From a virus, in the IMG/VR virus record IMGVR_UViG_3300025704_001179, positions 1 through 43,230 of that record: 43,230 bases of DNA. One strand, given 5' to 3'. The position numbers were made by a program, and so were the translations under genes. Shown here piece by piece: positions 4,526 to 42,725 of the stretch. The first letter of the stretch is position 1. Every line of letters begins with the position of its first letter. Below the pieces are notes generated by a model that was given only the letters and a program-made list of their open reading frames with translations, did no database searches and was not told the origin of the DNA.

Positions 4526-4566
4526 GTTTACTTTCTCTTAATTTTAAATACTTATCCAGTATGTTT

Positions 4567-5523
4567 TTAGAAGTATGCAGGTTTGAGTCTATTCCATGCA
4601 AAGCCTGAACGATGCTCGTGAAAATAATATTGTGTGTATGCTAGATCATATAACCATTGCTCACGAGGTATATCTAGTTTTGGATTGTTTAAGTAAGATA
4701 AGTCAGGTTGAGATACGTCGAAACTCATTGCAGTATCGTCTAATGCAAATGTAGGAATGCCTTCACATGCACTTTCTATAAGGGTGTTACTAGTTGTACC
4801 AATAACTGCCCATGCATTGTCGAAGTCTTTTTGTAAGCCTCTGCCACCGTTTGCAATTGTTTGTGTATCGTAATTAGTAGTATGCGTTACGTTAGGTATT
4901 CCTTCTTTTGCTGCAATACCCGCAGCTATTGATCTGCTTTTGTTTGCTTTTGGATGCCCTCTAAGAACAATAGGCATATCAGTATGCTCACGAATTTTAC
5001 GCAAGCAATCAGACACATACGCCCAATATTGATTACCCCAAACTTTATGCACTTGTTCTAAGCTACTGTCATTGGGCTTTTGCAAAATGAATAATATGTA
5101 ATCACCCTTTGCTCTCCAAGGCTTTATTTCTATGTTTTGGTCTTTTTGTATTTTGTTAAATCTATCCGGCGGGCTATTTTCATTACAAAATATTCCCTGG
5201 CGCATAAAATGATTCCAGCCTACACGTTGCATAAACAGTGGATTCTTATCTTGTAATGCTGTTGTGCCCCTACGAAATACAGGACTTTCATATACTAAAA
5301 AAGGTTTGCCTGATTCTTTAATAAAATCAAACTGGTCTTTTAACTTAGGGGTTGAAAATTTATATATATTAGTTTGCATATATCCATCGGCACTCTTAAC
5401 TAATGGATCATCTAAATTTTCTACTATCTTAAAATTAGGCAAATCTGGAACAAATAATAAATTTTGATTATCAAAGCTGCCTTTTATACCAACTATTAAC
5501 GGTTCACTAAGTTTTAATTTCAT
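4567..5523 (-). CDS. Capsule-synthesis (KpsS-like) family protein, paralog C
   Basis: 318 residues. The core has ADP-heptose/capsule transferase-like features: KPWRAKGDYILFILQKPND near residue 130, VLRGHPKANKS (a basic loop), then FDNAWAVIGTTSNTLIESAC and EGIPTFALDD. It ends with HEHRSGFAWNRL, matching the end motif (E-x-x-x-G-x-A-W-x-x-L) of the two other paralogs. It overlaps the upstream glycosyltransferase gene by 17 nt. A sugar-transfer role in a phosphate-linked or Kdo-like capsule type is possible by family, but the sequence does not show which sugar. Confidence 0.65.
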   Translation of the reverse strand: MKLKLSEPLIVGIKGSFDNQNLLFVPDLPNFKIVENLDDPLVKSADGYMQTNIYKFSTPKLKDQFDFIKESGKPFLVYESPVFRRGTTALQDKNPLFMQRVGWNHFMRQGIFCNENSPPDRFNKIQKDQNIEIKPWRAKGDYILFILQKPNDSSLEQVHKVWGNQYWAYVSDCLRKIREHTDMPIVLRGHPKANKSRSIAAGIAAKEGIPNVTHTTNYDTQTIANGGRGLQKDFDNAWAVIGTTSNTLIESACEGIPTFALDDTAMSFDVSQPDLSYLNNPKLDIPREQWLYDLAYTQYYFHEHRSGFAWNRLKPAYF

Positions 5524-6154
5524 TTTTAAACTGCCTATAAACTTCTAAATATTTATGTGTAATTTTATTGTCGCCTTTGAGTGTTAAAAATATACTGCCG
5601 CGTCCGTTTTTTCCGATTGACATCCATTTATAATGTACAGGCACAAAGTTAAATTTATCTTTTAGTTTTGATAGGACTTTTTGATCTCTGCCAACTTTCC
5701 ATGTCGATATTGGGTCAGAATTAAGTAGTTCTGCGTATTCGTATCTAAAGTTATCATTCTTAAAACAAACTAATCCGCAAAGCCAGCGATCGGGTTTTTT
5801 GTCTTTTACTAAAATATTTTGCTTATCAAATATATTAATAAATTCTTCTTTTGTAAATTTCTTACAACATATAGTATCTGCATCAATAGTAAGTACAAAT
5901 TCTGTAGTAGGAATTTTAGATACTGCAAGAAATCTTACAGCTTGCAAATAAGATATTTTTGAATCTTCGTTATCGAAAGAAATTTCTTCTGTAGTATATT
6001 CTACAAAAGGTAATTTTTTTAGATTTTTTGGATTTACTACATGACAACGTAATTTAATATCAGGACAGTTAAAGTTTATAGATTTTAGTAGTGTTGATGC
6101 CCAGTCATCGTAGTATTTTTGATCAACTCCTACTAAAATACTACACGCTTGCAT
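5507..6154 (-). CDS. Putative GT-A glycosyltransferase
   Basis: 215 residues. The N-terminus MQACSILVGVDQKYYDDWAS and the central TTEFVLTIDADTICCKKF (DAD as the DxD motif, near residue 97) fit a small GT-A glycosyltransferase. GRDQKVLSKLKDKFNFVPV resembles the acceptor-side region of GT8/GT2-like enzymes, in which an Asp/Gln pair precedes a long helix. The ATG at 6154 lies inside the last codons of uvsY, so the sugar cluster is joined by overlap to the recombination genes and probably shares their transcript. Substrate unknown. Confidence 0.6.
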   Translation of the reverse strand: MQACSILVGVDQKYYDDWASTLLKSINFNCPDIKLRCHVVNPKNLKKLPFVEYTTEEISFDNEDSKISYLQAVRFLAVSKIPTTEFVLTIDADTICCKKFTKEEFINIFDKQNILVKDKKPDRWLCGLVCFKNDNFRYEYAELLNSDPISTWKVGRDQKVLSKLKDKFNFVPVHYKWMSIGKNGRGSIFLTLKGDNKITHKYLEVYRQFKNEIKT

Positions 6155-15058: not shown

Positions 15059-15066
15059 TTATTTAT
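15059..15066 (-). promoter_or_regulatory. Late-promoter motif overlapping the gp4 stop
   Basis: Minus strand ATAAATAA, inside the last codons and stop of the gp4-like gene and pointing at gp16 (ATG at 15033). A leader of about 25 nt with GGAACC precedes that ATG. Confidence 0.5.
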
Positions 15067-15500
15067 CTTCTTCTACCTGTGTGGAAAATATCATCTTCAG
15101 TAACAATACGGAATGTTATGCCTTTTTGTTTACACCATGCTCTTGCAGCTTCCCATTTAGCTTGATTAACAACCCAATGTGCTTGATTGTGCTTACTATT
15201 ACCTAGTCGTTCTCGATGAGCTTGATTTGCAGGTTTAACTTCGATTAGTTCTACACGCTTTTTAGTACTTTTATCTGCATACGAAATAAAGAAGTCGGGT
15301 ACATATACAGTTTGTTTGCCTGTTAAGGGATTCCGGTAAGGTATACGTACTGCTTCACTTGCCCAATTTTCAATTGCAGGATGTTCGTCGCAGAATTTCA
15401 TAAAAGTAAATTCCCACCCTGAACGATATGTAGGAGTTTTAGTACCTATATATTTTTGTGGATTTTTTAGATTGAATTTACCTTGTGCAAAACGTGACAT
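15063..15500 (-). CDS. gp4: Head completion nuclease gp4
   Basis: 145 residues (T4 gp4 is 150). It acts on packaged heads before tail joining and belongs to the PD-(D/E)xK/TnsA-like nuclease group. Matches to T4 gp4 run along the whole length: KNPQKYIGTKTPTYRSGWE, HPAIENWASEAVRIPYRNP, VPDFFISYADKSTKKRVELI followed by EVKPA, and KGITFRIVTEDDIFHTG. The D (in VPDFF) and E-x-K (in ELIEVKP) are the likely catalytic residues. Start at 15500, 1 nt after the upstream stop. Confidence 0.88.
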   Translation of the reverse strand: MSRFAQGKFNLKNPQKYIGTKTPTYRSGWEFTFMKFCDEHPAIENWASEAVRIPYRNPLTGKQTVYVPDFFISYADKSTKKRVELIEVKPANQAHRERLGNSKHNQAHWVVNQAKWEAARAWCKQKGITFRIVTEDDIFHTGRRR

Positions 15501-21351: not shown

Positions 21352-21687
21352 ATGAGACCATTATGCAAGTGCGGGCTGCGTCCAGCTGCAATAAACTATA
21401 AAAAGAACAACAAAACTTACTATCGTAAACTGTGCGAAAAATGTTTACGCAACGGATTAGGTCACGGGATACCATTTTGGAAGCAGCGCGGGTACGAAAA
21501 GAAAAGCGTATGTGAAAAATGTGGATTTAAATCAAAGCATGACGAACAGTTTAACGTATTTCACATAGACGGTGACTTAGTTAATTGTCGGCCTAATAAC
21601 TTAAAAACTATCTGTGCTAACTGTCAACGTATTATGCAAAAAGAAGGGGTACGTTGGAAACAGGGTGATTTACGACCTGACTTCTAA
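21352..21687 (+). CDS. HNH-type zinc-finger endonuclease-like protein
   Basis: 111 residues. Paired cysteines make zinc sites: CKCG at the N-terminus, LCEKC near residue 29, VCEKCGFKS near 53-61 and TICANC near 88. Between the last two pairs, FNVFHIDGDLVNCRPNNLKT carries the H...N...N pattern of HNH nucleases (HIDGD, then the N-N-L before the last cysteines). HNH proteins of this type occur as free-standing or homing nucleases in T4-like phages. It is the only plus-strand gene in this part and overlaps the kinase-like gene by 18 nt tail to tail. Confidence 0.7.
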   Translation: MRPLCKCGLRPAAINYKKNNKTYYRKLCEKCLRNGLGHGIPFWKQRGYEKKSVCEKCGFKSKHDEQFNVFHIDGDLVNCRPNNLKTICANCQRIMQKEGVRWKQGDLRPDF

Positions 21688-22176
21688 GTAACACATTAGT
21701 CTATCTAAATTAAATTTCAAATCATCTAATGTACCATTGTTGTCAATAGTATAATCTGCCATCCATTGTTCAAGACTCATACTGTCTTTTGATTCAGGAG
21801 GAAGATGATCGCTACGATCAACCCAAATAGCATAATCAAACACACCAGTATTTTTCATAGCGTGGAATTCTTTTTTGTTTCTTAATCCGCAGTAGATATC
21901 ATATTCGGCAAACATTTCTCTGCCCAAAGTTGCTGCGTCAGGTATATTATAATCACAAATAGCTTCGTACCATTCTTGACGATGATTGTGTCTATCAGCA
22001 TAGCACTGTTCTTCGTCAGTGTACCCGTATTTGTCTTTTAGATCATTATAGATAAACAACTTGCTACAGAACTTACTACTGCTTTCAAAACTATAACCAT
22101 ATTTGTCGCGAAGCATTTCACATACAGTGTCTTTACCGTGTCTACCATGGCCAATAACTAATAGTTTCAGTTTCAT
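21670..22176 (-). CDS. P-loop kinase, dNMP-kinase-like
   Basis: 168 residues. The N-terminal KLKLLVIGHGRHGKDTVCEM is a P-loop (GxxxxGKDT) typical of phage deoxynucleoside monophosphate kinases and related nucleotide kinases. Further features are SSSKFCSKLFIYNDLKDKYG, RQEWYEAICDY, YCGLRNKKEFHAM and AIWVDRSDHLPPESKDSM, the last a lid-like segment. It would supply dNDPs for phage DNA synthesis; the exact nucleotide is not predictable. T4 gp1 is longer (241), so this is a compact form. A strong sigma70-type promoter precedes it, with AGGAGAACAAT as SD. Confidence 0.65.
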   Translation of the reverse strand: MKLKLLVIGHGRHGKDTVCEMLRDKYGYSFESSSKFCSKLFIYNDLKDKYGYTDEEQCYADRHNHRQEWYEAICDYNIPDAATLGREMFAEYDIYCGLRNKKEFHAMKNTGVFDYAIWVDRSDHLPPESKDSMSLEQWMADYTIDNNGTLDDLKFNLDRLMCYLEVRS

Positions 22177-22198: not shown

Positions 22199-22226
22199 AT
22201 TATAACAGAACTTATGTATTTGTCAA
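22199..22226 (-). promoter_or_regulatory. Consensus sigma70-type promoter of the kinase-like gene
   Basis: Minus strand TTGACA (22226-22221) and TATAAT (22204-22199) with a 16-bp spacer. Both hexamers are perfect. The -35 box overlaps the end of the methyltransferase gene. It drives the kinase-like gene at 22176. Confidence 0.75.
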
Positions 22227-24003: not shown

Positions 24004-24011
24004 ATAAATAT
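24004..24011 (+). promoter_or_regulatory. Late promoter of gp14-gp15
   Basis: Plus strand ATAAATAT, then ACATAACGAATAGGAGAATAGCT before the presumed gp14 start at 24035. The only in-frame upstream stop for gp14 lies inside this motif. Confidence 0.65.
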
Positions 24012-24034: not shown

Positions 24035-25195
24035 ATCCCTCGCTTATCATTATACAAACCGGAACGCGGCAATGATTATCACTTTTTGGATCGACAGATT
24101 CAAGAGATGTTTACTGTCGGCGGTACAGATATTAATATCCACAAGTTCCTTGGTGCAGAAAATCCCGCTGTCGGCGAAGGAACTGCTGACCAGCCGACAT
24201 ACGATGCTGTAAAAGAAACCAACATACAAGACTTACTGTTCTTAGAAAATAGAGACAGAAAGTATGATCCCGACGTTTACAATATTCGCGGCATTTATAA
24301 TGTCCAGGATATAGACTTTGATCTTAGTGCGTTTGGACTATTTTTAAGTAATGATACACTTATGTTAACTATACATATTAATAGTTCAGTTAAAACTCTA
24401 GGTAGAAAAATTATGTCAGGTGATGTAATTGAACTGCCACATCTAAAAGATGAATATGCTCTTAATGATTACAGTTTCGCACTCAAAAGATTTTATGTTG
24501 TAGAAGATGTAAATCGTGCAGCAGAAGGATTTAGTCAAACTTGGTATCCGCATTTATATCGCTTAAAATTAAAGCAAATTTATGATGGTCAAGAATACGC
24601 AGAAATATTAGACTTACCTGCAGAAGAAGGAAGTGACAATACTCTACGTGATTTATTATCAACATATGAAAAAGAAATGCAGATTTCTAATGCTGTGGTT
24701 GCACAAGCAGAAGCTGATGCTCCTAAAAGCGGATATGACATTAGTCACTATTATACAGTAAGTACAAATGACGACGGCAGTGTTGCACTACAAACAGCAG
24801 ACGACACTGACATTGAAGCAAGTAATATAGACAGAACTACAGACGAAGTTACAAGTAGACCAGAACGTGAAGGATATACAGGTTACTTAGTTGGTACTGG
24901 TGATGCTGCTCCTAATGGGGCGCCGTTTGGTTTTGGTATAGGGTTTCCTACTAACAATGAAGAAGGTGATTATTTCTTACGTACAGACTTTTTACCAAAT
25001 AGAATGTTTAGATATGATGGAACAAGGTGGGTTAAAGTGCAGGATGATATTAGAATGTCTCTAAGCAACACGCTTGAAAGACAAACATATAAAACTACAT
25101 TTATTAATAATAATAAAACTAGTCAAATCGACGGCGAAACTGTTCAAGAAAGACAGAGTTTGTCTAAAGCACTTCGTCCAAAGGCAGATAATTAA
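24035..25195 (+). CDS. gp14: Neck protein gp14-like
   Basis: 386 residues if read from 24035 (T4 gp14 is 256). Residues 1-21 would be xPRLSLYKPERGNDYHFLDR, coding-like and in frame, and AGGAG ends 7 nt before the first codon. But that codon is ATC, not ATG. The first conventional start in frame is the TTG at 24086 (369 residues), which has no ribosome site. Core landmarks are FTVGGTDINIHKFLGAENPA, then TNIQDLLFLENRDRKYDPDV, HINSSVKTLGRKIMSGDVIE and WYPHLYRLKLKQIYD, which match gp14. A C-terminal insert with EEGDYFLRTDFLPNRMFRYD and GTRWVKV is a decoration unit shared with gp18. The stop overlaps the gp15 start. Confidence 0.7.
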   Translation: MPRLSLYKPERGNDYHFLDRQIQEMFTVGGTDINIHKFLGAENPAVGEGTADQPTYDAVKETNIQDLLFLENRDRKYDPDVYNIRGIYNVQDIDFDLSAFGLFLSNDTLMLTIHINSSVKTLGRKIMSGDVIELPHLKDEYALNDYSFALKRFYVVEDVNRAAEGFSQTWYPHLYRLKLKQIYDGQEYAEILDLPAEEGSDNTLRDLLSTYEKEMQISNAVVAQAEADAPKSGYDISHYYTVSTNDDGSVALQTADDTDIEASNIDRTTDEVTSRPEREGYTGYLVGTGDAAPNGAPFGFGIGFPTNNEEGDYFLRTDFLPNRMFRYDGTRWVKVQDDIRMSLSNTLERQTYKTTFINNNKTSQIDGETVQERQSLSKALRPKADN

Positions 25196-26607
25196 TGCAA
25201 CATTTTTACGACGGACAAATAAGAAGATATCTTACGCAAATGATGCGCATACTAGCAAACTTTCCTGTACAAGACGGAAAAGGTGTGCAAAAAGATGTTC
25301 CAGTTACTTACGGCGATTTAACACGCCAAGTTGCTAATATTATTAGAGAAAACAGTGAAAACAAATTACCTAGTGCGCCGCGAATTGCTGTGTACTTAAC
25401 TGGACTAGAACTAGACAAAGATAGACTAACAGATTCAACATATACTCGCAAAACTAATATTAGAGAACGTGCATATGATAGCGAAGCAGGAGAATACTTA
25501 AACACACAAGGTAAGAATTATACAGTTGAACGTTTAATACCAACTCCATACATGATGCGCATTAATGCAGATATCTGGACAAGCAATACAGATCAAAAAT
25601 TACAATTGCTAGAACAAATATTAGTATTGTTTAATCCTAGCTTAGAAATGCAAACTACCGACAACTTTATTGACTGGACAAGTATCAGTGTTGTTAATTT
25701 AGAAAATGTACAATGGTCAAACAGAAGTGTACCTGTTGGTGTAGACAGTGAAATAGATATTTGTACTATGACATTTAGTATTCCTATCTATATCAGTCCA
25801 CCTACTAAAGTACGAAAAATGGGAGTAATTACTAATATTATTACAAGCATGTTTGACGAAACACTGGGTGATATTGAAAGTGGAGTTAGTGCTCCAGTGC
25901 TTAATGCATACGACGATTCGCCAAGAGCAGGAATTACAGAAAACGAATTTGGTAGAAAAGCTATATCCGACACTGCTGCTGAAATGGCAAATGTCAACTA
26001 CAATACATACGGTGCATTTGTAAGTGGCAACAATGCGCAATTATTTTCCAATGGTATTGTTGGTAATAAGAATTGGAGAGAAATTTTTGAAGCGTTGCCG
26101 GGCACATATGCTGCTGATGTAAGTCGTATATATTTCACTAGTCAAGATAATTCTAAAACTGTTACAGGAACGTTTACACTAAGTCCGTTTGATGAAACAA
26201 CAATATTAATAAACTGGGACACAGATAGTTTTCCAAGCGACACTGTAATTGCAGGACGTACAAGTATAGATTATATCATTGACCCTACTAATTACAATCC
26301 TACTCCAATTAAAACACCTGGTGTGAGACTATTGCTATTAGACGATGTTGGTAATGCAGATGCTACTGAATCACCAACAGCATGGCAAAACACAGATACT
26401 ACTGCAACCGTTGCAAGTGCAAATGATATTATCGAATGGGATGGTTCTAAATGGAATACAGTATTCGATGCAAGTGCTGCTACTGATGTCACATACACTA
26501 CTAATTTAAATACAAGCGTACAGTATCGATTTAATAACGACGAATGGTTATTAAGTATCGATGGCGACTACCCTGTAGGAACTTGGCGTGTTGAACTAGC
26601 AGGATAA
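25195..26607 (+). CDS. gp15: Tail completion and sheath stabiliser gp15
   Basis: 470 residues (T4 gp15 is 272). It caps the tail tube and sheath. The N-terminus HFYDGQIRRYLTQMMRILAN and then VPVTYGDLTRQ match gp15, as do APRIAVYLTGLELDKDRLT, RLIPTPYMMRINADIWTSN, QKLQLLEQILVLFNPSLEMQ and VDSEIDICTMTFSIPIYISP (a hexameric-ring beta core). The extra 200 C-terminal residues contain NDIIEWDGSKWNTVF and NNDEWLLSIDGDYPVGTWRV, a Trp-rich decoration domain. The start ATG overlaps the gp14 stop as TAATG. Confidence 0.88.
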   Translation: MQHFYDGQIRRYLTQMMRILANFPVQDGKGVQKDVPVTYGDLTRQVANIIRENSENKLPSAPRIAVYLTGLELDKDRLTDSTYTRKTNIRERAYDSEAGEYLNTQGKNYTVERLIPTPYMMRINADIWTSNTDQKLQLLEQILVLFNPSLEMQTTDNFIDWTSISVVNLENVQWSNRSVPVGVDSEIDICTMTFSIPIYISPPTKVRKMGVITNIITSMFDETLGDIESGVSAPVLNAYDDSPRAGITENEFGRKAISDTAAEMANVNYNTYGAFVSGNNAQLFSNGIVGNKNWREIFEALPGTYAADVSRIYFTSQDNSKTVTGTFTLSPFDETTILINWDTDSFPSDTVIAGRTSIDYIIDPTNYNPTPIKTPGVRLLLLDDVGNADATESPTAWQNTDTTATVASANDIIEWDGSKWNTVFDASAATDVTYTTNLNTSVQYRFNNDEWLLSIDGDYPVGTWRVELAG

Positions 26608-26655: not shown

Positions 26656-27096
26656 ATGAACAATCGTATTACATGTAGCGGTGCGCTATTTTACACACTA
26701 GATACAAATAGATTTTTATTTCTGCACAGGGCGCAAGGCAAGCGTAATAATTTGTGGGGACTCGTTGGCGGCACAAACGAAGGTGCCGAAACTCCGTGGG
26801 AAGGTTTAAAAAGAGAAATTGAGGAAGAAATTGGATTTGTTCCTGATATTAAAAAAACACTTCCTTTGGAAAGTTTTATTTCACCTGACAGTAGGTTTTA
26901 TTTTCATACATATCTTTGTGTTATTCAAGAAGAATTTATTCCTAAACTTAATAATGAACACGATGGATATGCTTGGTGCAGTTTTACTAAGTGGCCAAAA
27001 CCGTTGCACCACGGCTTGCGCAACACACTTCAAAGTAAAATTAATCTTACTAAGCTAGATACTGTATTTCAAACTATAAATCTTCTTGACAAATAA
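26656..27096 (+). CDS. Nudix hydrolase
   Basis: 146 residues. The Nudix box is at residues 39-61: GTNEGAETPWEGLKREIEEE then IGF, fitting G-x5-E-x7-R-E-U-x-E-E-x-G-U, with the metal-binding glutamates intact. ITCSGALFYTLDTNRFLFLH is the usual first strand pair. Phage Nudix enzymes clean up nucleotide diphosphate derivatives, including nucleotide sugars, which suits the heptose genes that follow. It may be the first gene of the plus-strand sugar operon. The 48 nt upstream show only a weak AT-rich promoter-like stretch. Confidence 0.85.
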   Translation: MNNRITCSGALFYTLDTNRFLFLHRAQGKRNNLWGLVGGTNEGAETPWEGLKREIEEEIGFVPDIKKTLPLESFISPDSRFYFHTYLCVIQEEFIPKLNNEHDGYAWCSFTKWPKPLHHGLRNTLQSKINLTKLDTVFQTINLLDK

Positions 27097-27114
27097 CTCA
27101 AAAGAAAGTATAAT
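27086..27114 (+). promoter_or_regulatory. Perfect sigma70-type promoter of hldE
   Basis: TTGACA (27086-27091) and TATAAT (27109-27114) with a 17-bp spacer: a full consensus match in spacing and both hexamers. It lies at the end of the Nudix gene. The hldE ATG at 27121 is 6 nt after the -10 box, so the transcript probably begins at the start codon (leaderless). Confidence 0.75.
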
Positions 27115-27120
27115 AGCGTT

Positions 27121-28257
27121 ATGAAAGTATTAATTATTGGCGACATAATAATCGACAAATATATCTATGGAACAAGCACACGTTTAAGTCCTGAGGCTCC
27201 TGTGCCTGTAGTAGCACAAAAACATGTTGTAGAAACTACAGGCGGCGCAGGGCTTGTTTACGAAAACTTAAAAAGTCTCGGTGTTGATGTTGAGCTGTTT
27301 GAGTATGCATCTAAAAAATGTGTAAAGACTCGTGTTATGTGTGACGGACATTATGTTACACGCATAGACGACGATCATTATGCAGACGGCGTTGAAGTTT
27401 GCAACACAATTCTTCGCAACGACTTTAGCAAATACGAGTATGTAATACTAAGCGATTACAACAAAGGTGTATTAGACGAGTCTATTAAGATTATCGAACA
27501 TCTTAATAAATTTGGATGCCGTGTAATTGTTGATCCTAAGTCACATGCAGAAAACTACGAAGGTGCATGGTTAGTTAAACCCAACGAAAAGGAATTTCAA
27601 GAATACTTCCTTAATTGGCACGGTAATATTATTACAACAAGAGCAGGCAAAAGTGTTGTTGCTAAGATCGACAATGAAGTTTACGAAGTAGATGTTGACA
27701 CTGTTGAAGTTAGTGATGTAACTGGTGCTGGAGACTGTTTCCTAGCTGCATTTGTTTATGCCCTTACAAAAGATTATGATTACAAAAAAGCAATTGAACT
27801 AGCAGTTAAAGGCTCACGCGAAAGTGTTCAGCACACGGGCACGTATACGCTTGCTGTAAGCGACTTGGAAGAAAGAGTAGTGTTTACTAACGGAGTGTTT
27901 GATATACTGCACAAGGGTCATTTTGAGCTCTTAGCAGAAGCACGTACACTGGGTGATAAACTAATTGTAGGCATTAACAGCGATGCTAGTGTAAAGCGTC
28001 TTAAAGGCGAAACTAGACCTATTAACAACCAAATGAAACGTATCAGTCAATTAGAAATATTGTCGTGGGTAGATCAAGTAATCGTGTTTCACGAAGATAC
28101 ACCTTACGAATTAATTAAGGAATTAAAACCGCATGTTATTGTTAAAGGCGGCGACTATACAGTAGAACAAGTTGTTGGACACGACTTAGCAGATGTACAT
28201 CTAGTACAAACTGTAGAAGGTTATTCAACAACTGGCATTATAGAAGCAAGTAAATAA
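27121..28257 (+). CDS. hldE: HldE-like heptose-7-phosphate kinase / ADP-heptose synthase, shortened
   Basis: 378 residues (E. coli HldE is 477). It should phosphorylate D-glycero-D-manno-heptose 7-phosphate at C1 and later attach AMP. The kinase domain (about 1-245) has TRLSPEAPVPVV and the PfkB signature DVTGAGDCFLAAF near 199. The transferase domain (about 250-378) has FTNGVFDILHKGHFELLAEA with HxGH at 264-267, then VGINSDASVKRLKGETRPIN and VKGGDYT, ending in STTGIIEASK. These match HldE closely. The kinase domain is short: a roughly 30-residue stretch before KKCVKTRVM and another of about 20 near residue 180 are absent, and GGAANVA is changed to GGAGLVY. Kinase activity is therefore less certain than transferase activity. 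Confidence 0.88.
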   Translation: MKVLIIGDIIIDKYIYGTSTRLSPEAPVPVVAQKHVVETTGGAGLVYENLKSLGVDVELFEYASKKCVKTRVMCDGHYVTRIDDDHYADGVEVCNTILRNDFSKYEYVILSDYNKGVLDESIKIIEHLNKFGCRVIVDPKSHAENYEGAWLVKPNEKEFQEYFLNWHGNIITTRAGKSVVAKIDNEVYEVDVDTVEVSDVTGAGDCFLAAFVYALTKDYDYKKAIELAVKGSRESVQHTGTYTLAVSDLEERVVFTNGVFDILHKGHFELLAEARTLGDKLIVGINSDASVKRLKGETRPINNQMKRISQLEILSWVDQVIVFHEDTPYELIKELKPHVIVKGGDYTVEQVVGHDLADVHLVQTVEGYSTTGIIEASK

Positions 28258-28281
28258 GAGAATTATGGAGAATTTTAATAA

Positions 28282-28911
28282 ATGACCAATGATGTATTTG
28301 TATTTGATGACATTGTGCCAGAGTGGTTATATGAGTCTATTAAAAAAAATATTTTATCAATACCAGTAACGTGCCAACATCATGGCATTGGACCTGATGT
28401 AGGTCACTCTTTTTTTAGTAAAATATGGCCGTTATTTGGATTACACGAAATTCCGTGGGAATACAAAGCAACATTTGCTGCACTTAATGATTCTAGAAAT
28501 AAATTGAGCAAAGAAGACGAAGTATTGCCATTGCACTTAATTCAGTGTCAACTTAATCTAACTACAAAAACCTTAGTAGGAGGAGTACATGCAGATATGG
28601 GGCCTCCGGCATGGACCATGGTGCATCTTATTTCTGGTGACACTGGCATGGACTTCTGGACTGATTATCCCGATAACGGTGGCAGAAAAATATGCGAAGT
28701 AGATTATAAAGATAACCGTTGTATCATATTTCCAAGTGATATATGGCATCGAGGAATTCCCACAATTGATGTCGAGCCTCGTATAACTTTGGGTTATATA
28801 TTTGGTGGGCCGCCGCAGAGCCAGCACGAACACGATAACAATATAATAAGTCCTATATTTAAAAAAGATTGGAGTAACAAATTAATGAAAACAGCTGAGA
28901 GAAACAAATGA
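28282..28911 (+). CDS. 2OG-Fe(II) oxygenase-like protein
   Basis: 209 residues. The iron triad is visible as H103-x-D105 in GGVHADMGPPAW and H156 in SDIWHRGIP, with R167 in EPRITLGYIF as the 2-oxoglutarate contact. These sit on a double-stranded beta-helix layout. Phages carry many such oxygenases, and their targets include sugars, proteins and bases. It is sandwiched between hldE and hldD, with GGAG upstream and a 4-nt ATGA overlap with hldD, so a role in heptose or glycan oxidation is plausible but not proven. Confidence 0.75.
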   Translation: MTNDVFVFDDIVPEWLYESIKKNILSIPVTCQHHGIGPDVGHSFFSKIWPLFGLHEIPWEYKATFAALNDSRNKLSKEDEVLPLHLIQCQLNLTTKTLVGGVHADMGPPAWTMVHLISGDTGMDFWTDYPDNGGRKICEVDYKDNRCIIFPSDIWHRGIPTIDVEPRITLGYIFGGPPQSQHEHDNNIISPIFKKDWSNKLMKTAERNK

Positions 28912-29732
28912 AAATATTAGTTACTGGACATAAAGGATTTATTGGATCGAACATTGCATTATATTTGCAATCGCAAGGACACGATGTAGAAGGTTGGGAG
29001 TGGGAACCTGGTATTATTCCCAGTACAGAGGATTACGACTGGTGTATACATACAGGTGCTATTAGTAGTACAACATATACGGATGTAAATCAGATACTAG
29101 AACAAAACTTTGAGTTTACTGTAAGATTAGCACAAGTGTGTGAAAACTTTGGTACTAATTTACAATACGCTAGTAGTGCTAGTGTTTATGGACCCACTGA
29201 ACACTTTACAGAAAATGGTCCATTGCTCCCGCAAAGTCCTTATGCTTGGAGTAAGTACCTGTTTGATAGATTTTTAGGTCAATTTCAAGACGAGTTTGAA
29301 ATTATTATTCAAGGATTCCGTTACTTTAATGTTTATGGACAAGGCGAAGAACACAAAGAAGATCAAGCAAGTCCAGTAAGTAAATTCACACATCAAGCAA
29401 AAGATTTAGGGGTTGTGACATTATTTGAAGACAGTGAAAAATATCTAAGAGATTTCGTATGTGTCGACGATATATGCAAACTACATGAAAAAATGTTCGA
29501 AGTGACTCAATCGGGAATTTTTAACGTGGGCACAGGTGTTCCTGTAAGTTTTGATACTGTTGGCAGAACAATTGCTAAAAAGTACAATTCAGATATTAGG
29601 TATATTCCTATGCCAGAAAATATTAAGTCGCAATATCAAAAGTATACCTGCGCAAACTTAACTAATTTAAATAGTGTAGTAGATATGCAATGGACAAATG
29701 TAGAGGATTATATAAATGCAAGAACCAACTAG
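28908..29732 (+). CDS. hldD: HldD-like ADP-heptose 6-epimerase
   Basis: 274 residues (E. coli HldD is 310). It should convert ADP-D-glycero-D-manno-heptose to the L-glycero form. NAD(P) binding is at GHKGFIGSN near residues 7-15. The HldD-specific motif CIHTGAISSTTYTDVNQILE is present. The SDR triad has YASSASVYG (Ser) and YAWSKYLFD (Tyr112-x3-Lys116). GFRYFNVYGQGEEHKEDQAS is almost the diagnostic HldD segment, and RDFVCVDDICKLHE, then SGIFNVGTGVP, follow. It overlaps the oxygenase by 4 nt and the cupin by 17 nt. Confidence 0.88.
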   Translation: MKILVTGHKGFIGSNIALYLQSQGHDVEGWEWEPGIIPSTEDYDWCIHTGAISSTTYTDVNQILEQNFEFTVRLAQVCENFGTNLQYASSASVYGPTEHFTENGPLLPQSPYAWSKYLFDRFLGQFQDEFEIIIQGFRYFNVYGQGEEHKEDQASPVSKFTHQAKDLGVVTLFEDSEKYLRDFVCVDDICKLHEKMFEVTQSGIFNVGTGVPVSFDTVGRTIAKKYNSDIRYIPMPENIKSQYQKYTCANLTNLNSVVDMQWTNVEDYINARTN

Positions 29733-30108
29733 ATTACAAGGCGTAGTACCCAAAGGTTGGGGATACGAACTTATTTGGGCCACTAACGATAAGTATTGTG
29801 GTAAAATTATGTTTTTTGAAAAGGAAGGCGCCCAATTCAGCATGCACTTTCACCGAGAAAAGGACGAAACATGGTTTGTAAACACAGGTAAATTCAAAGT
29901 ACAATGGATTGACACTGATACTGCTGGGCTATATGAAAAAGAATTAAATGAGGGTGATGTTTGGCATAATCCTCCGCTACAGCCACATAGGTTGATTTGT
30001 CTACAAGGCAGTTCTAGCATTACCGAAGTTAGCACAGCTGATAGTGTAGAGGACAATTACAGAGTTGCTCCAGGTGACAGTCAACGGTCAAAGGAAAAAA
30101 ATGGCTAG
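29716..30108 (+). CDS. Cupin, sugar-phosphate isomerase-like
   Basis: 130 residues, a single cupin domain. Metal-site motifs are FSMHFHREKDETWFV (His-x-His and Glu) and GDVWHNPPLQPHRLI (second His). It resembles the C-terminal cupin of mannose-6-phosphate isomerase type II and the cupin fused to the nucleotidyltransferase at 3123-3896. A role in isomerising or binding a sugar phosphate of the heptose pathway is inferred from the operon, as it overlaps both hldD and gmhB. Confidence 0.7.
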   Translation: MQEPTRLQGVVPKGWGYELIWATNDKYCGKIMFFEKEGAQFSMHFHREKDETWFVNTGKFKVQWIDTDTAGLYEKELNEGDVWHNPPLQPHRLICLQGSSSITEVSTADSVEDNYRVAPGDSQRSKEKNG

Positions 30109-30721
30109 GAGTGTATTAGACAATGCGTTTGTAAACAATACTAATCAAATTAATGATAGTAGCATTTACAACAAACCGGTAATAGGCCTGGATCGAGATG
30201 GTGTATTGAATGTCGATCTTGGAACATATGTTACCACTCCTATGATGTTTGATCCTATACCGAGTAGTTTAGAAGCTGTTGCATTATTGAGGTCTAAAGG
30301 TCATAGGATAGCAGTTATTACCAATCAAGGAGGAATCGAAAAAGGCTTGATGACTCCAGCTGATGTAGATGCAGTAAATAATAGAATGCTCGAGTTACTG
30401 GGACAAGCAGGCTGTCCTAGTATTGATGCCATCTACTATAGTGCCAGTAGTCGTAAGAATGACATGTATGCTAAACCAAATATCGGAATGTTTAAGCGAT
30501 GTGAGAAAGAACATCCGTATATTAAATTTTCAAAAGGTTTTTTTGTTGGTGACAAACTTAGTGACCTAAAAGCCGCCTTCAAAATAGGTGCTAGACCTAT
30601 ACTGGTTAGAACTGGGTACGGCCTAGAAACCGAAAAACAATTAAACAAACACGCATACAAACAGATTAAAAAACAAACACTTGTGTTTGATAATCTTTGG
30701 GAGTTTGCACAAGCCCTTTAG
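30101..30721 (+). CDS. gmhB: GmhB-like heptose-1,7-bisphosphate phosphatase
   Basis: 206 residues from the ATG at 30101, preceded by AAAGGAAAAAA and overlapping the cupin stop by 8 nt. HAD motif I is GLDRDGVLNVDLG (catalytic Asp31 and Asp33), motif II is VITNQGGIEKG, and motif III/IV is GFFVGDKLSDLKAAFKIGAR. These match GmhB (E. coli 191). GmhB normally has a zinc loop with Cys and His between IYYC and the KPHPG segment; here it reads IYYSASSRKNDMYAKPNIGM, with no Cys, so this is a zinc-less form. The stop codon lies in a palindrome shared with the convergent gene. Confidence 0.82.
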   Translation: MARSVLDNAFVNNTNQINDSSIYNKPVIGLDRDGVLNVDLGTYVTTPMMFDPIPSSLEAVALLRSKGHRIAVITNQGGIEKGLMTPADVDAVNNRMLELLGQAGCPSIDAIYYSASSRKNDMYAKPNIGMFKRCEKEHPYIKFSKGFFVGDKLSDLKAAFKIGARPILVRTGYGLETEKQLNKHAYKQIKKQTLVFDNLWEFAQAL

Positions 30722-37926: not shown

Positions 37927-38637
37927 ATGAAAAATGGAAAACTTTGGATTTTTGGCGATAGCTACGGAACATTTCACCAATCAGGTGACGAAATTAAAGA
38001 CTGGCACTGGATGTGGAGTCTTACAGAAAAACTAGGCCATGAAAATTTTTATAATATATGCGAAGACGGTGTTGCTAACGAATGGATATATTACCAATTT
38101 ATAGATAATTCTTCGAATATAAATCCAGAAACAGACACTATTATTTTTATTACTACTCAAATAAATCGTCAATGGTTTTTTCCAGATAATGAAGGCGTAG
38201 GTAATATTCACATGGGTCCCCTCGACAATTATGTAACAAAAGACCAATCTAAAGCAATTAATTTATACATCAAACATCTAACAGATAATCCTCAGGATTC
38301 TATAAGATTTCAGTGGCTATTATATGGATTAAATTTTTTAAAAGAACAAAATAATTTAAATTTACTAATACTTCCTGGATTTGAAAATGAAGGATTCTTT
38401 TTAAATAATAATATTGCAGTAAAAGGTAGTTTACTCGATCCGTGTATTAACGAAGTAAAAGGCAAAAATATGCAATCTTGGTTGAACTGGAAGGGAAAAA
38501 TTAACGGGAAAGATCCTAGGGAAGGCCATATCTCCGAGTGCAATCATCTTATACTTTCTCAAAAGCTATATCAGACTATTAAACATAATCAAGTGTTAGA
38601 TTTAACCACAGGATTTGAACAAGAGTTTATAAATTAA
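37927..38637 (+). CDS. SGNH/GDSL-hydrolase-like protein
   Basis: 236 residues from the ATG at 37927 (an upstream in-frame ATG at 37900 lies in the late promoter motif of the opposite strand). KLWIFGDSYGTFHQSG contains the GDS block with the catalytic Ser, and NICEDGVANEWIYYQF has the Gly/Asn positions of blocks II-III. EGHISECNHLILSQKLYQ contains a late His that could complete the site. These enzymes remove or transfer acyl groups, often acetyl groups on polysaccharides. It is the only plus-strand gene here and overlaps the next (minus) stop by 4 nt. Activity is inferred. Confidence 0.6.
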   Translation: MKNGKLWIFGDSYGTFHQSGDEIKDWHWMWSLTEKLGHENFYNICEDGVANEWIYYQFIDNSSNINPETDTIIFITTQINRQWFFPDNEGVGNIHMGPLDNYVTKDQSKAINLYIKHLTDNPQDSIRFQWLLYGLNFLKEQNNLNLLILPGFENEGFFLNNNIAVKGSLLDPCINEVKGKNMQSWLNWKGKINGKDPREGHISECNHLILSQKLYQTIKHNQVLDLTTGFEQEFIN

Positions 38638-39332
38638 GATTTTTTAATATGTAAATACCAGATATCATTAGGATAAGTTACACTCAAACAATAATTTTCA
38701 ATTCTTAATCCGTTATCTTCGATCATCTTCGCAAATGTTTCTGGATTACTACCTTTTGTATTTTCCATTAGTACAATATCAGCATCATCAGTTATATAGC
38801 TACTAACAGTATTAAAAAAATCTTGATGTATGTTCCAGTTTTGATCTTTATATTTTCGATGCTCGTTAGGGTCGATATTTCCAAATGACGGAGTAAAGCT
38901 AAAATGCGGCGGATTTCCAATTATTAGATCATATGCTATGTTTGTAGGATGACTTTTAAAATTATTAGACAATACAAAATTTACATTATTATTAAGATTA
39001 TTTTTATCTATAGTTTTTTCTACTACAAATTTATTTGGCTCGTGTATGTCTAATAATGTAAGACGTTCTGTTAAGCCTTGGCTTAATGTTCCAAAACCTA
39101 AATATCCAGGGCCAGAACACCATTCTAAACAATGATTATATATTCTGCCATTTGAAAAATGATTAATACAGGATACGGCATCAGCTGCTGTCTGATAACC
39201 GTATCCATCTAATTTATTCGATGAGTAGACTAAAAATTTATCTAGTCTAACTTCAACAATGTCTGTATTAAGCAACTTTCCAATTTCCGACTGTAAGAAG
39301 CTTTCCGTATTCTGGCAAATACAAATATTCAA
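38634..39332 (-). CDS. Class I methyltransferase with NPP motif
   Basis: 232 residues. LEWCSGPGYLGFGTLSQGL is motif I, LTLLDIHEPNKFVVEK is motif II, and YDLIIGNPPHFSFTPSFG is motif IV (NPPx), which marks N-methyltransferases of the HemK/PrmC or adenine type. The start at 39332 overlaps the carbamoyltransferase C-terminus by 65 nt; an alternative TTG at 39275 has a weak ribosome site. The target could be a protein glutamine, a base or a small molecule. Its place next to the carbamoyltransferase suggests sugar-related chemistry, which would be unusual for this motif. Confidence 0.65.
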   Translation of the reverse strand: MNICICQNTESFLQSEIGKLLNTDIVEVRLDKFLVYSSNKLDGYGYQTAADAVSCINHFSNGRIYNHCLEWCSGPGYLGFGTLSQGLTERLTLLDIHEPNKFVVEKTIDKNNLNNNVNFVLSNNFKSHPTNIAYDLIIGNPPHFSFTPSFGNIDPNEHRKYKDQNWNIHQDFFNTVSSYITDDADIVLMENTKGSNPETFAKMIEDNGLRIENYCLSVTYPNDIWYLHIKKS

Positions 39333-41067
39333 TCTTACTTTCGCTCAGTGTCCAAAGTGCATCTTCTAATGTTTCTACAAGAGGTTCTCCGCCTAGATTA
39401 AAACTAGTATTAAAGATAATCGGAACTCCAGTCTTTTCTTTAAATGCCTTAATCACTCGGTAGTAAAGAGGATTTTCTTCTTCAGTAACTGTCTGAATGC
39501 GACATGTACCGTCCACATGAATAATACTAGGTATTTTTTCAGCAATGCCTGGTTGACAATTAACAGCATACATCATATGTGGACTGTCTTCCATTCCCCG
39601 TAAATCAAACCATTCGTGTGCGTCTTCGGCAAGTATTGATCCTGCAAACGGACGGAAGTATTCTCGATGTTTAATTTCATTAACGAAATCTTTGCCATCT
39701 TCAAAGGTCGGATCGAACATCAACGAACGATTTCCTAATGCACGTGGACCGTTTTCAGCACGACCTTGAAACATTGCTACAATATTCTTATTAGTCATTA
39801 ATTCGATAACGTCATCGTCTGTTGCATCAGTAACAATAGCATTATATTCTTCTGCCAATTTAGTAATATCTTCATCTTTATAATTATACTGAGGACCTAG
39901 ATAAATTTCTCTAGGCTGTGATTCTAAAGATTGACTAGTAGCATAATAATATAGTAAAGCAGCGCCAATGGCTGTTCCGCCATCATTTGATATAGGCTCA
40001 ACAAATAATTCGATACCTTCTTCATTAAGCCTATTAAGATACCAGTAGTTTGCTACACAGTTTAATCCGTAGCCGCCAGATAGTACTACTTTATTTTTAC
40101 CTGATAATTTTGTAGCAGACAAAATTATATCTAATGCTTGTTCTTGTGTTTCTTGTTGACATGCATATGCTAAGTCTCTTCGATTTTGGTACTCTGTCCA
40201 AGTATGGTCATCTCCAACAGGACTATCTGACAATTCTTCATAATTTTTATGATTTACTATTGCAGCATTTGGATATGTTGGAACGAAAAGACTTCTATCA
40301 GCTAGTGGAATTTTAGTACTGTTTAAAAACAGTTTGGGTATATTACTATTTTCTTTACCGTATGGAAATAGTCCCATTGTTTTACCTGCTTCGATTGCTT
40401 GGAAGCCGCAGTATTGTGTTACTGCTTCGTATACTTTTACTATGCCGGCGTGTCCTGAAACTACAGAAGTAAATGTATTGCCTTCTTCGCCAAACTGTGC
40501 TCCATCTGTATTGGTATTAATGGCTGTAACAATTGGATCTCTACATCCAAAATGTTTGTATAGAGTTTTAATATTGTCAGGATAAGAACAATCGTAAATA
40601 CTCTCAACTTCCCAAAGTAACACATTACCATCTTGAGTTTGTCCTGAAGTTGCAGATCCAGCGCCATCAATAACTACTGCTACAGCTTCGTCAAAGCCAC
40701 TCCTATAAAATGCACAAGCAGCATGTACTTTATGGTGTAAATGGGAAACATCGATACATTGTGGATGATCATGTATATCACCTTTTCTATCAATTAATCC
40801 CATTTTTCTAGCTAAACCTGAATAAAGATTATCGCCCGTATACTCTATTTTTGGTCCATCATTAATAGACGTTGTGTGACACACCACTAGTGCATCAATT
40901 TTATCAGTATATTCTTTTACTTTCAACATTGTTGCTAAAGGGCCGCCATCATACTTGTGTCTTGTAAAGCGTTCTTCTTCGCTTGCAAATACAATTTTAC
41001 CATCTTTAAGTAAGCAAACGCCTGCATTATGGCCTCTTGAAATACCTAAAATATATCCTGATGACAT
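39268..41067 (-). CDS. NodU/CmcH-type carbamoyltransferase
   Basis: 599 residues, the usual length. It transfers a carbamoyl group from carbamoyl phosphate via carbamoyl-AMP to a sugar hydroxyl. The N-terminal domain has YILGISRGHNAGVCLLKDGK, then FASEEERFTRHKYDGG, and the metal/nucleotide motif SHLHHKVHAACAFYRSGFDE. GGYGLNCVANYWY is present. The C-terminal domain has FQGRAENGPRALGNRSLMFD, then REYFRPFAGSILAEDA and IFNTSFNLGGEPLVETLEDA. All family motifs look intact. It lies next to the GT9-like heptosyltransferase gene. Confidence 0.9.
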   Translation of the reverse strand: MSSGYILGISRGHNAGVCLLKDGKIVFASEEERFTRHKYDGGPLATMLKVKEYTDKIDALVVCHTTSINDGPKIEYTGDNLYSGLARKMGLIDRKGDIHDHPQCIDVSHLHHKVHAACAFYRSGFDEAVAVVIDGAGSATSGQTQDGNVLLWEVESIYDCSYPDNIKTLYKHFGCRDPIVTAINTNTDGAQFGEEGNTFTSVVSGHAGIVKVYEAVTQYCGFQAIEAGKTMGLFPYGKENSNIPKLFLNSTKIPLADRSLFVPTYPNAAIVNHKNYEELSDSPVGDDHTWTEYQNRRDLAYACQQETQEQALDIILSATKLSGKNKVVLSGGYGLNCVANYWYLNRLNEEGIELFVEPISNDGGTAIGAALLYYYATSQSLESQPREIYLGPQYNYKDEDITKLAEEYNAIVTDATDDDVIELMTNKNIVAMFQGRAENGPRALGNRSLMFDPTFEDGKDFVNEIKHREYFRPFAGSILAEDAHEWFDLRGMEDSPHMMYAVNCQPGIAEKIPSIIHVDGTCRIQTVTEEENPLYYRVIKAFKEKTGVPIIFNTSFNLGGEPLVETLEDALWTLSESKIEYLYLPEYGKLLTVGNWKVA

Positions 41068-41069: not shown

Positions 41070-42077
41070 TTATTTTTCTCCTATTAGTTTTTTATTTGGT
41101 TTATCAAATATGGTCGAAGGTTTATTATTTGCCGACGGCAATTTCTTATTTGAACTTTCTGGTTTTCCGATTTTATCTGCGATACTTTTCATAATTTTTT
41201 TATAATTTTCCTCGTTTAAAATCATATTATCTTCGTTGTGTCTTTCTCTTGCAGGATCTTGAGTAACTCGATACGGCACGTATACTCTATTTTCTTTTCC
41301 GTTATCAATAATTGTAAAGTCTTTATTTCCTGGATAACTTATGTTTTCTGGAAAAGTTGATCCTATAACCACTGTTGCCGGTTTGCCTAATGCGTGGGCA
41401 TAGTGTTGTCCCATGCTATCGCAACCTAGAAAATAGTCTGCTGCATTAACTATTCCCGTCCACTGTAGCAAGCTTGCATTATCTGGTATAGCAGCACCCA
41501 TAGGCCTATCGGTTGGAATTTTGAGATTTGTCATTAATATTACTGCATAATCCTTAGATAGTTCGTCAACTATTCTAAACACATCTGATAATTCAAAACT
41601 GCGGCCACTTTCATCAAATACAAAATTGCCATCTATTTTAACACCGCTGCCAAATGGTTGAAAGACAATAACCTTTTCTTTTTTCATTTGTTGCTTAACT
41701 TGGCCTACTAAATTATACCCATAAATTTGATCGGCTTTTCCGAGATCTAAATTTATAGGCTTACTTTCTACAGCTTCGTCAACATCATTAATAAGCATAT
41801 CAAACGCCTGTATTAAATTAACACGTTGATTAAAATAAGCATTTAGTCTGTAAGGCTCTGGACTAATAATTTCTCTATCTTTTAAAACAGTTTTAAATAA
41901 TTCTTTACTGCCTACTGGCCAAATATTATTTCGCAATTTTGAAGATAAGAACAGTTCATGCCAAGCTTCTGATACTATTACAACATCTGGATCAGTATGT
42001 TCTTTATAATACTCTAATGCAGGTATGCTGCATAACACACGGCCGGCTCCACCGTTAATAAAAAATGCTTTTTTCAT
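41070..42077 (-). CDS. GT9 heptosyltransferase-like protein
   Basis: 335 residues. The N-terminus KKAFFINGGAGRVLCSIPAL is the GT9 opening (glycine-rich, then Pro-Ala-Leu helix). The C-terminal domain has YFLGCDSMGQHYAHALGKPA and TVVIGSTFPENIS, which is the nucleotide-sugar-binding segment of ADP-heptose:LPS heptosyltransferases. VIVFQPFGSGVKID and DELSKDYAVILMTN are the Rossmann-like links. The last 40 residues are Lys/Asn/Ser-rich and probably a flexible extension. GT-B enzymes of this family use ADP-heptose, which this phage can probably make. AGGAG precedes the ATG. Confidence 0.72.
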   Translation of the reverse strand: MKKAFFINGGAGRVLCSIPALEYYKEHTDPDVVIVSEAWHELFLSSKLRNNIWPVGSKELFKTVLKDREIISPEPYRLNAYFNQRVNLIQAFDMLINDVDEAVESKPINLDLGKADQIYGYNLVGQVKQQMKKEKVIVFQPFGSGVKIDGNFVFDESGRSFELSDVFRIVDELSKDYAVILMTNLKIPTDRPMGAAIPDNASLLQWTGIVNAADYFLGCDSMGQHYAHALGKPATVVIGSTFPENISYPGNKDFTIIDNGKENRVYVPYRVTQDPARERHNEDNMILNEENYKKIMKSIADKIGKPESSNKKLPSANNKPSTIFDKPNKKLIGEK

Positions 42078-42143: not shown

Positions 42144-42725
42144 CTACGGAGAAGTATTAAAAGCTAAAGATACTCTACTATCTTTACTATGATTAGAAAC
42201 TACATCGTGATCCAAATAACTGGGAAACATTATTAATTCGTTTTCACAAGGATGGTGCGAATAGTAAGATTTCAATTCATCAATATCACGATCTGCTGCA
42301 TATGCCCATCCGTAATCTGAAAATTCTCTGCTTCTATAAAAACAAATAGGACTATCTGCATCTACAGGATATTTAATATAATATGTACCACTTATTACTG
42401 ATCCTGGATGACAATGTCTTTTGTTATAAGAATTAGTAGGATTAATATTAATCCAGGATTCTGTTATATATTGAGGCTTAATACAAATTTCCTTACAAAA
42501 AGATAATATATTTTTTTGTATGTTATTTAAAAGAGCTGGGATATAAGTAAGATTTTCTTTTTCAAAAAACTCGTTTGTAATATCAATTCTATCGCCGTTG
42601 ACGCCGCTGATTACTTTATTTGTGTAACCTTTATTCAAAAGAAAGCCTACTTCATCATATATTAGATGAGTAGGCTCTTTGAGGGTAGATATATTAATAG
42701 GTGTTGGAAATAAAAGTTTAATCAT
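42144..42725 (-). CDS. 2OG-Fe(II) oxygenase-like protein
   Basis: 193 residues, the size and layout of a common phage 2OG-Fe(II) oxygenase family. ESWININPTNSYNKRHCHPG, then SVISGTYYIKYPVDADSPIC, holds the N-x-H/H-x-H metal region (H104, H106), and ELIMFPSYLDHDVVSNHSKD, then SRVSLAFN, holds the distal His173 and Arg184. This arrangement matches the family's beta-helix. The substrate is unknown. It is the second such enzyme in the window, and like the first it sits next to glycan genes. A strong sigma70-type promoter and an inverted repeat precede it; AAAGGA is the ribosome site. Confidence 0.72.
   Translation of the reverse strand: MIKLLFPTPINISTLKEPTHLIYDEVGFLLNKGYTNKVISGVNGDRIDITNEFFEKENLTYIPALLNNIQKNILSFCKEICIKPQYITESWININPTNSYNKRHCHPGSVISGTYYIKYPVDADSPICFYRSREFSDYGWAYAADRDIDELKSYYSHHPCENELIMFPSYLDHDVVSNHSKDSRVSLAFNTSP

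Follow-up and report, generated by a model that had tools for sequence, protein, structure and literature searches.

The gene content of the virus record IMGVR_UViG_3300025704_001179 was analysed over its full length of 43,230 bases, hereafter called the window, which carries tailed-phage genes of the T4 type. From the encoded families it is very probable that the genes of this marine phage serve to produce a seven-carbon sugar in activated form and to couple it to some acceptor. With moderate confidence they are read as a two-group heptose-tailoring module, in which ADP-heptose would be formed from the heptose 7-phosphate of the host, transferred and carbamoylated, most likely on a glycan of the host surface. 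The first group is a cassette on the plus strand with the order NUDIX, compact fused HldE, oxygenase-like open reading frame (ORF), HldD, cupin and GmhB-type phosphatase. The second group, on the minus strand, pairs a transferase of glycosyltransferase family 9 (GT9) type with a carbamoyltransferase. A preliminary description of the window had placed HldE, HldD and GmhB in one operon; the second pair, which lies some 9-11 kb away, and the conserved promoter before hldE were not mentioned in it. The features are as follows.

26656..27096, plus strand: NUDIX hydrolase gene (Pfam NUDIX, 3.8e-17; in 78 of 80 HldE loci)
27086..27114, plus strand: sigma70-type promoter TTGACA-N17-TATAAT (12 of 12 consensus matches)
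27121..28257, plus strand: compact fused HldE, 378 amino acids (NCBIfam HldE, 2.6e-84)
28282..28911, plus strand: oxygenase-like ORF (PHROG 274, 1.3e-12; PHROG 81, 7.3e-5)
28908..29732, plus strand: HldD, ADP-glyceromanno-heptose 6-epimerase (TIGR02197, 1.9e-67)
29716..30108, plus strand: small cupin (Cupin_2, 3.1e-7)
30101..30721, plus strand: GmhB-type HAD-IIIA phosphatase without zinc loop (NCBIfam PRK08942, 2.5e-36)
39268..41067, minus strand: carbamoyltransferase, T4-GC303 (Carbam_trans_C, 1.8e-58; Carbam_trans_N, 5.3e-24)
41070..42077, minus strand: GT9 heptosyltransferase-type glycosyltransferase, T4-GC302 and PHROG 8954 (family-wide Pfam scan and predicted fold)

The sets of related loci were the best 80 of 130 (HldE), 211 (GmhB) and 152 (GT9) matches, so the counts favour relatives of the window. 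Neighbours in these sets were counted as tblastn matches inside the available flanks, and residue conservation was taken from alignments of dereplicated or chosen subsets of the loci.

Enzymes of the heptose cassette

HldE matched, in addition to the bifunctional NCBIfam model, the models of both its domains (kinase 2.1e-49, adenylyltransferase 9.5e-50). The kinase model rfaE_dom_I reached 168 bits compared to 48 for the next kinase family, and rfaE_dom_II also reached 168 bits. The residues D205, H264, G266, H267, S369 and T370, belonging to the GAGD aspartate, the HxGH motif and the STT stretch, were present in all 49 aligned sequences, while T371 was kept in 45 and replaced by Ser in 4; seven of the eight checked positions were invariant. 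In the AlphaFold model (predicted local distance difference test, pLDDT, 91.0) the kinase half was closest to HldA, with a Z score of 28.4 over 248 residues at 30% identity. The phage protein has 378 residues compared to 453-471 codons in all 80 cellular matches listed, and the shortening relative to six cellular HldEs falls in two kinase regions and the interdomain linker. The supported prediction is a heptose 7-phosphate kinase joined to a heptose 1-phosphate adenylyltransferase.

For HldD the ADP-heptose 6-epimerase profile ranked first with 227.7 bits, the next non-heptose family reaching 67.2, and the best PDB match was E. coli HldD (1eq2, 2.3e-40). Residues Y112 and K116, the Tyr and Lys of the YxxxK motif, and K150, the Lys of the F-R-Y-F-N-V-Y-G...HK stretch, were found in 37 of 37 phage sequences and line up with E. 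coli HldD; all five checked positions were invariant. The phosphatase reading frame extends upstream to a TTG at 30065; the alignment of relatives favours the ATG at 30101 as the true start. Heptose-bisphosphate phosphatase was its top NCBIfam family. At the HAD motif positions (catalytic Asp pair, Thr/Ser, Lys and acidic motif), of 46 sequences D10, K104 and D134 were present in 46, D12 and D130 in 45, and T53 in 44 with a Ser in one more. Profile and residues support membership of the GmhB-type HAD-IIIA family, with GmhB in the strict sense as a candidate identity. One related locus, L178, has a GmhB-type copy without the catalytic Asp residues in a cassette that is otherwise present.

These results are in accordance with much of the preliminary description. 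The ORFs for HldE, HldD and a GmhB-like protein exist with heptose profiles far beyond chance, and heptose families rank first for all three. The identities of HldE and HldD hold, as heptose models stand far above other sugar kinases and epimerases and the active sites are kept in every sequence save for the one Thr/Ser position. Loss of catalytic residues, named as a result that would refute HldE and GmhB, was not seen in the window proteins, the residues being near-invariant in 49 HldE and 46 GmhB-type sequences. The three enzymes had been called consecutive, but they are not adjacent ORFs, as the oxygenase-like ORF and the cupin intervene; the overlapping frames claimed for these two hold from the oxygenase/HldD junction onward, whereas HldE and the oxygenase-like ORF are separated by 24 nucleotides (nt). 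The oxygenase label itself is weak. The ORF at 28282-28911 gave no Pfam match, and its PHROG matches were to a 'DNA endonuclease V' family (274) and a '2OG-Fe(II) oxygenase' family (81; 2OG, 2-oxoglutarate); the label of PHROG 274 may be wrong, as the matching ORF also matches the oxygenase family. This ORF is an optional insert, found in 7 of 80 HldE loci. The cupin is a homologue of cyanophage T4-GC307, 38% identical to GC307 of P-SSM2.

The phosphatase step was compared between phages. In five cyanophages a protein of 107-115 amino acids, T4-GC306, is annotated as 'phosphoheptose isomerase'. None of the three tested copies matched Pfam, and for the two compared with NCBIfam the nearest models were EcbF-BcbF capsule phosphatases (P-SSM2 1e-8, S-SSM7 8.5e-6), under the model cut-off. 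The candidate role as a SIS isomerase, or GmhA, was rejected on these results, and by its profile matches T4-GC306 is classed as an EcbF/BcbF-type HAD phosphatase, not GmhA. Among 68 distinct cassettes classed within 11.5 kb, the GmhB type alone occurred in 39 fused and 5 split cassettes and the EcbF type alone in 17 split ones; both occurred in one (AG-345-O18) and neither in six. At this limit L003 has both types, while an earlier classing of 88 loci at 10 kb found none with both; the two classings exclude cassettes with less than 3.5 kb of flank. A whole-record search found the GmhB-type gene in none of the five cultured cyanophages. The replacement of one HAD type by the other suggests that both fill the same step, and the cassettes with neither indicate that dephosphorylation can be left to something else.

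The first enzyme of the bacterial route, GmhA, was searched for by the SIS_2 profile. This profile gave no match in the window, in 43 IMG/VR records taken from the HldE and GmhB searches, or in six further records (P-SSM2, P-TIM68, S-CAM1, S-SSM7 and S-T4 as whole records, and the AG-345-O18 fragment), and the wider SIS family was absent from 29 of 29 records. Positive controls were detected in these searches; most of the IMG/VR records are fragments, and for the five cultured cyanophages the complete records were scanned. The absence of GmhA noted earlier for the window is thus confirmed and extends to the relatives. Because no GmhA was found in the phages searched, heptose 7-phosphate would have to come from the host.

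Of 26 comparisons between window genes and relatives, 22 had a finite dS, and in these the ratio of nonsynonymous to synonymous substitution rates (dN/dS) was 0.02-0.13; synonymous sites were saturated in the other four. The cassette genes are under purifying selection.

The GT9-type gene pair and the hldE promoter

The protein encoded at 41070-42077 belongs to PHROG 8954, labelled 'unknown function', and is 56% identical to GC302 of P-SSM2. In the GC302 family 38 of 47 members match Pfam Glyco_transf_9 at E up to 0.05, the best at 1.8e-7. The window protein itself gave no such match at E 0.05, the sequence search of GC302 against the PDB gave nothing relevant, and the NCBIfam heptosyltransferase models matched weakly (0.0041 at best, with P-SSM2 GC302, and 0.011 with the window protein). 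The AlphaFold model of the window protein (pLDDT 91.4) fits GT9 over residues 1-307 of 335. Its Z scores were 22.1 for 3tov, 21.1 for WaaF, 19.9 for TibC and 18.5 for WaaC, with GT9 entries spanning 17.9-22.1; apart from three chloroplast chains taken up below, the remaining entries listed had Z of 12.2 or below. The Asp and His of a D-S-x-G-x-H stretch are invariant in all 47 members. On account of the family-wide Pfam scan and the fold comparison, GC302/PHROG 8954 is assigned to GT9 as a heptosyltransferase-type protein, and use of an ADP-heptose donor is predicted for it. It shares the predicted fold with the GT9 heptosyltransferases WaaC, WaaF and TibC but only 10-15% identity with solved members.

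The carbamoyltransferase gene starts 2 nt downstream of the GT9 gene and was detected in 80 of 80 GT9 loci. Among long records, the GT9 gene occurs in 28 of the 36 selected from the HldE and GmhB searches, and an HldE-type kinase in 16 of the 30 GT9 records.

Position 27086 had been given as the start of the cassette. It is the first base of the -35 box of a perfect TTGACA-N17-TATAAT promoter and lies inside the end of the NUDIX gene, whose last codons overlap this box; the first cassette gene past the promoter begins at 27121, the -10 box ending 6 nt 5' of the hldE ATG. The same geometry was compared in 92 distinct upstream regions including those of cultured phages (an earlier count without them was 86). 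At least 10 of 12 matches were present in 61 of 63 regions of fused hldE with an adjacent NUDIX gene, 42 of them perfect. The corresponding counts were 1 of 9 for fused hldE without adjacent NUDIX, and for split kinases 0 of 19 without NUDIX and 1 of 1 with it. At random positions the threshold was reached in 15 of 20,000; the control using all plus-strand ATGs contains the hldE starts and hence is not clean. Transcription usually starts about 7 nt past the -10 box, so the hldE message would begin at the ATG, and a leaderless message is predicted.

Weaker sites carried little information. Promoter-like sites with at least 9 of 12 matches were no commoner in the window than in shuffles (29 compared to 26.5), and sites at 10 of 12 are common there. 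The GT9 gene is preceded by one 10/12 site and 10 of 64 distinct upstream regions of its relatives reach 10/12; since such sites are common in the window, this one was dropped as promoter evidence. One other perfect site occurs in the window, before the ORF at 21670-22176, and two long relatives have four and one other promoters with 11-12 matches ending 5-7 nt before a start. Consensus sigma70-type promoters were seen to recur (window 22199-22226; L239-L253, two long relatives), some of them 5-7 nt from a start codon and others about 21-30 nt from it with a Shine-Dalgarno-like stretch. It may be common in this phage group for early messages to lack a leader.

Of the 41 ORF starts in the window, 15 have the hexamer TAAATA in the 45 nt upstream of them compared to 0.95 expected; most of these are outside the cassette, and the NUDIX and hldE starts have none at this distance. 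Near the starts of structural genes the hexamer resembles the late promoter motif of T4 type. The longer ATAAATA is not enriched window-wide (14 found, 21.2 expected). The host-type promoter at hldE, taken with TAAATA near many structural genes, suggests early expression of hldE.

Related cassettes and the surrounding genes

The preliminary description implied novelty and proposed that related phages be examined for the operon. The cassette is present in IMG/VR relatives and, in split form, in cultured cyanophages; the phage heptose cassette as such is therefore not new. A tblastn search of 50,697 phage records revealed HldE relatives in 53, with at least 80% of the query covered in 28. In P-SSM2, S-CAM1 and S-SSM7 the genes for kinase, nucleotidyltransferase, 'phosphoheptose isomerase', cupin, epimerase and carbamoyltransferase lie together, whereas P-TIM68 and S-T4 have part of the cassette in the stretches examined. 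The cassette stands beside tail fibre genes in P-SSM2 and S-CAM1, and the S-SSM7 cluster includes a halogenase. The likeness covers cyanophage T4-GC302 to GC308, that is, kinase, nucleotidyltransferase, HAD phosphatase, cupin and HldD-type epimerase, together with the carbamoyltransferase and GT9-type genes of P-SSM2, S-CAM1 and S-SSM7; the window proteins are 34-56% identical to those of P-SSM2. In the cyanophage cassettes kinase and nucleotidyltransferase are encoded by separate genes and the phosphatase is of the EcbF/BcbF type. The window type combines a fused HldE and a GmhB-type phosphatase with a neighbouring NUDIX gene and the leaderless consensus promoter. Compared with the bacterial ADP-L-glycero-D-manno-heptose pathway (GmhA, HldE, GmhB, HldD), three of the four proteins are present in the window by profile, but no GmhA was found, HldE is shorter and the GmhB-type enzyme lacks the zinc loop and the R-K-P Arg.

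In published accounts these genes are treated as lipopolysaccharide (LPS) genes. Sullivan et al. 2010 reported that T4-GC304, 305, 307 and 308 co-occur in three phages and left undecided whether cyanophage LPS genes are functional or stuffer DNA (PMC3037559). A genome note of 2020 names a heptose kinase, a 'phosphoheptose isomerase' and a heptose epimerase in a cyanophage (PMC7378029). Iyer et al. 2021 interpreted a second cyanophage cluster, in which carbamoyltransferases, HAD phosphatases and cupins occur, as serving to decorate the capsule or to make a secondary metabolite (PMC7824862). For a cave-pool phage HldE is reported (PMC11671562), for a wastewater huge phage heptosyltransferase I (PMC10747093), and for trench viruses LPS maturation genes including WaaF (PMC9529941); as described there, these are single auxiliary genes and not this cassette. 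ADP-heptose-LPS heptosyltransferase activity is described as enriched among marine ORFan families (PMC4508852), which would fit the present reading. Among the titles and abstract openings listed, neither GC302 as a heptosyltransferase nor a leaderless phage hldE message was found. The window cassette is a variant of the one known from cyanophages, and its function can be predicted more definitely than in these accounts.

The cassette lies directly 3' of a gp15-like gene and abuts an opposite-strand gene for a virion protein of 1,939 amino acids. The neighbours of the two groups are given below.

24086-25195: virion structural protein
25195-26607: tail sheath/sheath-stabilizer (gp15-like) protein
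38634..39332, minus strand: small methyltransferase overlapping the carbamoyltransferase gene (Pfam MTS, 8.1e-6; in 12 of 80 GT9 loci)
42144..42725, minus strand: 2OG-Fe(II) oxygenase upstream of the GT9 gene (2OG-FeII_Oxy_5, 3.9e-22; in 32 of 80 GT9 loci)

Membership of the methyltransferase in the module is a guess, and so is that of the 2OG-Fe(II) oxygenase, near which a promoter-like site with 11 of 12 matches lies at 42771-42743. The large terminase of the window is about 55% identical to jumbo-phage terminases around Pseudomonas phage PA5oct, and a RecA-like protein and a weakly gp32-like protein are also encoded. Amid structural genes a protein with a TnsA-like endonuclease domain was observed at 15063-15500 on the minus strand (Pfam 5.2e-24). 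A second sugar cluster at 730-6154, minus strand, contains two weak GT8-like glycosyltransferases, an FkbM methyltransferase and, at 3123-3977, a fusion of a nucleotidyltransferase with a mannose-6-phosphate-isomerase-type cupin. Over some 80 residues its nucleotidyltransferase portion shares about 44% identity with the corresponding domain of HldE. In the IMG/VR contig L016 the cassette is followed by an inverted, divergent second set of the same genes, possibly an assembly chimera.

Weighing of the evidence and its meaning

In the proposed mechanism the host would supply heptose 7-phosphate, which the enzymes of the phage cassette would turn into ADP-heptose, the hldE module being expressed early. 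The second group (42077-39268, minus strand) would then act, the GT9-type transferase adding heptose to an acceptor and the carbamoyltransferase decorating it. The likeliest acceptor would be a host surface glycan, so that the surface of the infected cell is altered, for example against superinfection. Gene content, active-site conservation, purifying selection, the GT9 class, promoter conservation and the absence of SIS proteins from the searched records are directly supported, and to these we add by inference the substrates, products, timing, acceptor and benefit.

Several observations weigh against this scheme. The cassette enzymes score under the curated NCBIfam cut-offs: HldE with 283.5 vs 521 bits and its domains with 168.3 vs 345 and 168.2 vs 181.5, HldD with 227.7 vs 274.6, and the GmhB-type protein with 124.9 vs 178 and 67.1 vs 149.6. 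The short length of HldE may explain part of its deficit. In the fold comparison of HldE, two HldA entries gave Z of 28.2-28.4, but two other HldA entries (25.3-25.5) were level with ribokinase (25.3), so the heptose reading of HldE rests mainly on sequence. The GmhB claim stood only in part: the protein is a HAD phosphatase of GmhB type with the catalytic Asp and Lys, but all 46 phage proteins lack Cys in the zinc-loop region and have Ala (44) or Val (2) in place of the C-R-K-P Arg that precedes the catalytic Lys. R-K-P is present in the four solved GmhB sequences compared, and its Arg contacts the substrate in E. coli GmhB. Owing to these absences the protein is called a GmhB-type HAD-IIIA phosphatase, whose exact substrate may differ from that of GmhB. 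Fused cassettes without any recognised phosphatase make up 5 of the 68 distinct ones, and the GmhB-type gene was found in 0 of 7 whole records of fused cassettes lacking one. For the model of the GT9-type window protein, three chloroplast NDH-complex chains (Z 18.6-19.3) fall amid the heptosyltransferases. Of the 30 long GT9 records, 14 gave no HldE-type kinase, fragments accounting for some share of these; the two gene groups are hence not obligate partners, and the link between HldE and GT9 genes is strong without being obligate. The supply by a host GmhA is an assumption. The -35 box overlaps the coding end of NUDIX, so its conservation may be partly coding. A TAAATA 31 nt before the cassette oxygenase ORF and an ATAAATA at 24004, before the upstream virion-protein gene, make late read-through from upstream possible, and the early timing of hldE is drawn from sequence only.

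Other explanations were compared with the tailoring of a host glycan. A bolder version, put forward only tentatively, is an early, self-contained system of heptosylation and carbamoylation, widespread in marine T4-like phages, in which a compact ADP-heptose pathway peculiar to phages would supply a GT9 enzyme, likewise peculiar to phages, and a dedicated carbamoyltransferase. Its target would be not the ordinary LPS core but, for example, a protein of the virion, a different polymer of the host surface or even, through hypermodification, the DNA of the phage. It is rather unlikely that the same chemistry serves the phage's own virion proteins by placing on them heptose, carbamoylated or not. 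TibC heptosylates an adhesin and is among the best fold matches with Z 19.9, and the cassettes are surrounded by virion genes in the window and adjoin tail fibre genes in two cyanophages; however, other GT9 proteins score as high as TibC or higher, and the host-type hldE promoter, compared with TAAATA at many structural genes, suggests early and not late use. The sub-cut-off profiles, the altered GmhB specificity residue, the accessory cupin and oxygenases and the halogenase of the S-SSM7 cluster would suit a cassette whose product is another activated sugar or a secondary metabolite; for the second cyanophage cluster Iyer et al. 2021 propose capsule decoration or a secondary metabolite. This is judged unlikely, for the families of HldE kinase, HldE adenylyltransferase, HldD and GT9 all indicate ADP-heptose.

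The dedicated GT9 gene in 28 of 36 long records, with a carbamoyltransferase alongside in every GT9 locus, makes it very unlikely that the enzymes merely top up host ADP-heptose for normal LPS synthesis with no new structure, even though the route meets the host pathway at heptose 7-phosphate and the long GT9 records without a kinase show that the parts can exist separately. Hardly credible is the view of the genes as functionless stuffer DNA filling the headful, which was raised in the account of Sullivan et al. 2010 and to which the GmhB-type copy of L178 would lend itself. It is contradicted by the selection data, and the low dN/dS where estimable, the near-invariant active sites and the conserved promoter argue that the cassette works.

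The gene set is thus probably used to redecorate the infected cell and is not ballast DNA, because related ocean viruses keep it intact. The placing of GC302 in GT9 and of GC306 among the HAD phosphatases replaces the vague label 'LPS gene' by a route that can be tested, and corrects the 'phosphoheptose isomerase' annotation that is repeated in several public phage records. In this route the missing first step is specified as host GmhA and the last one as heptosyl transfer with carbamoylation.

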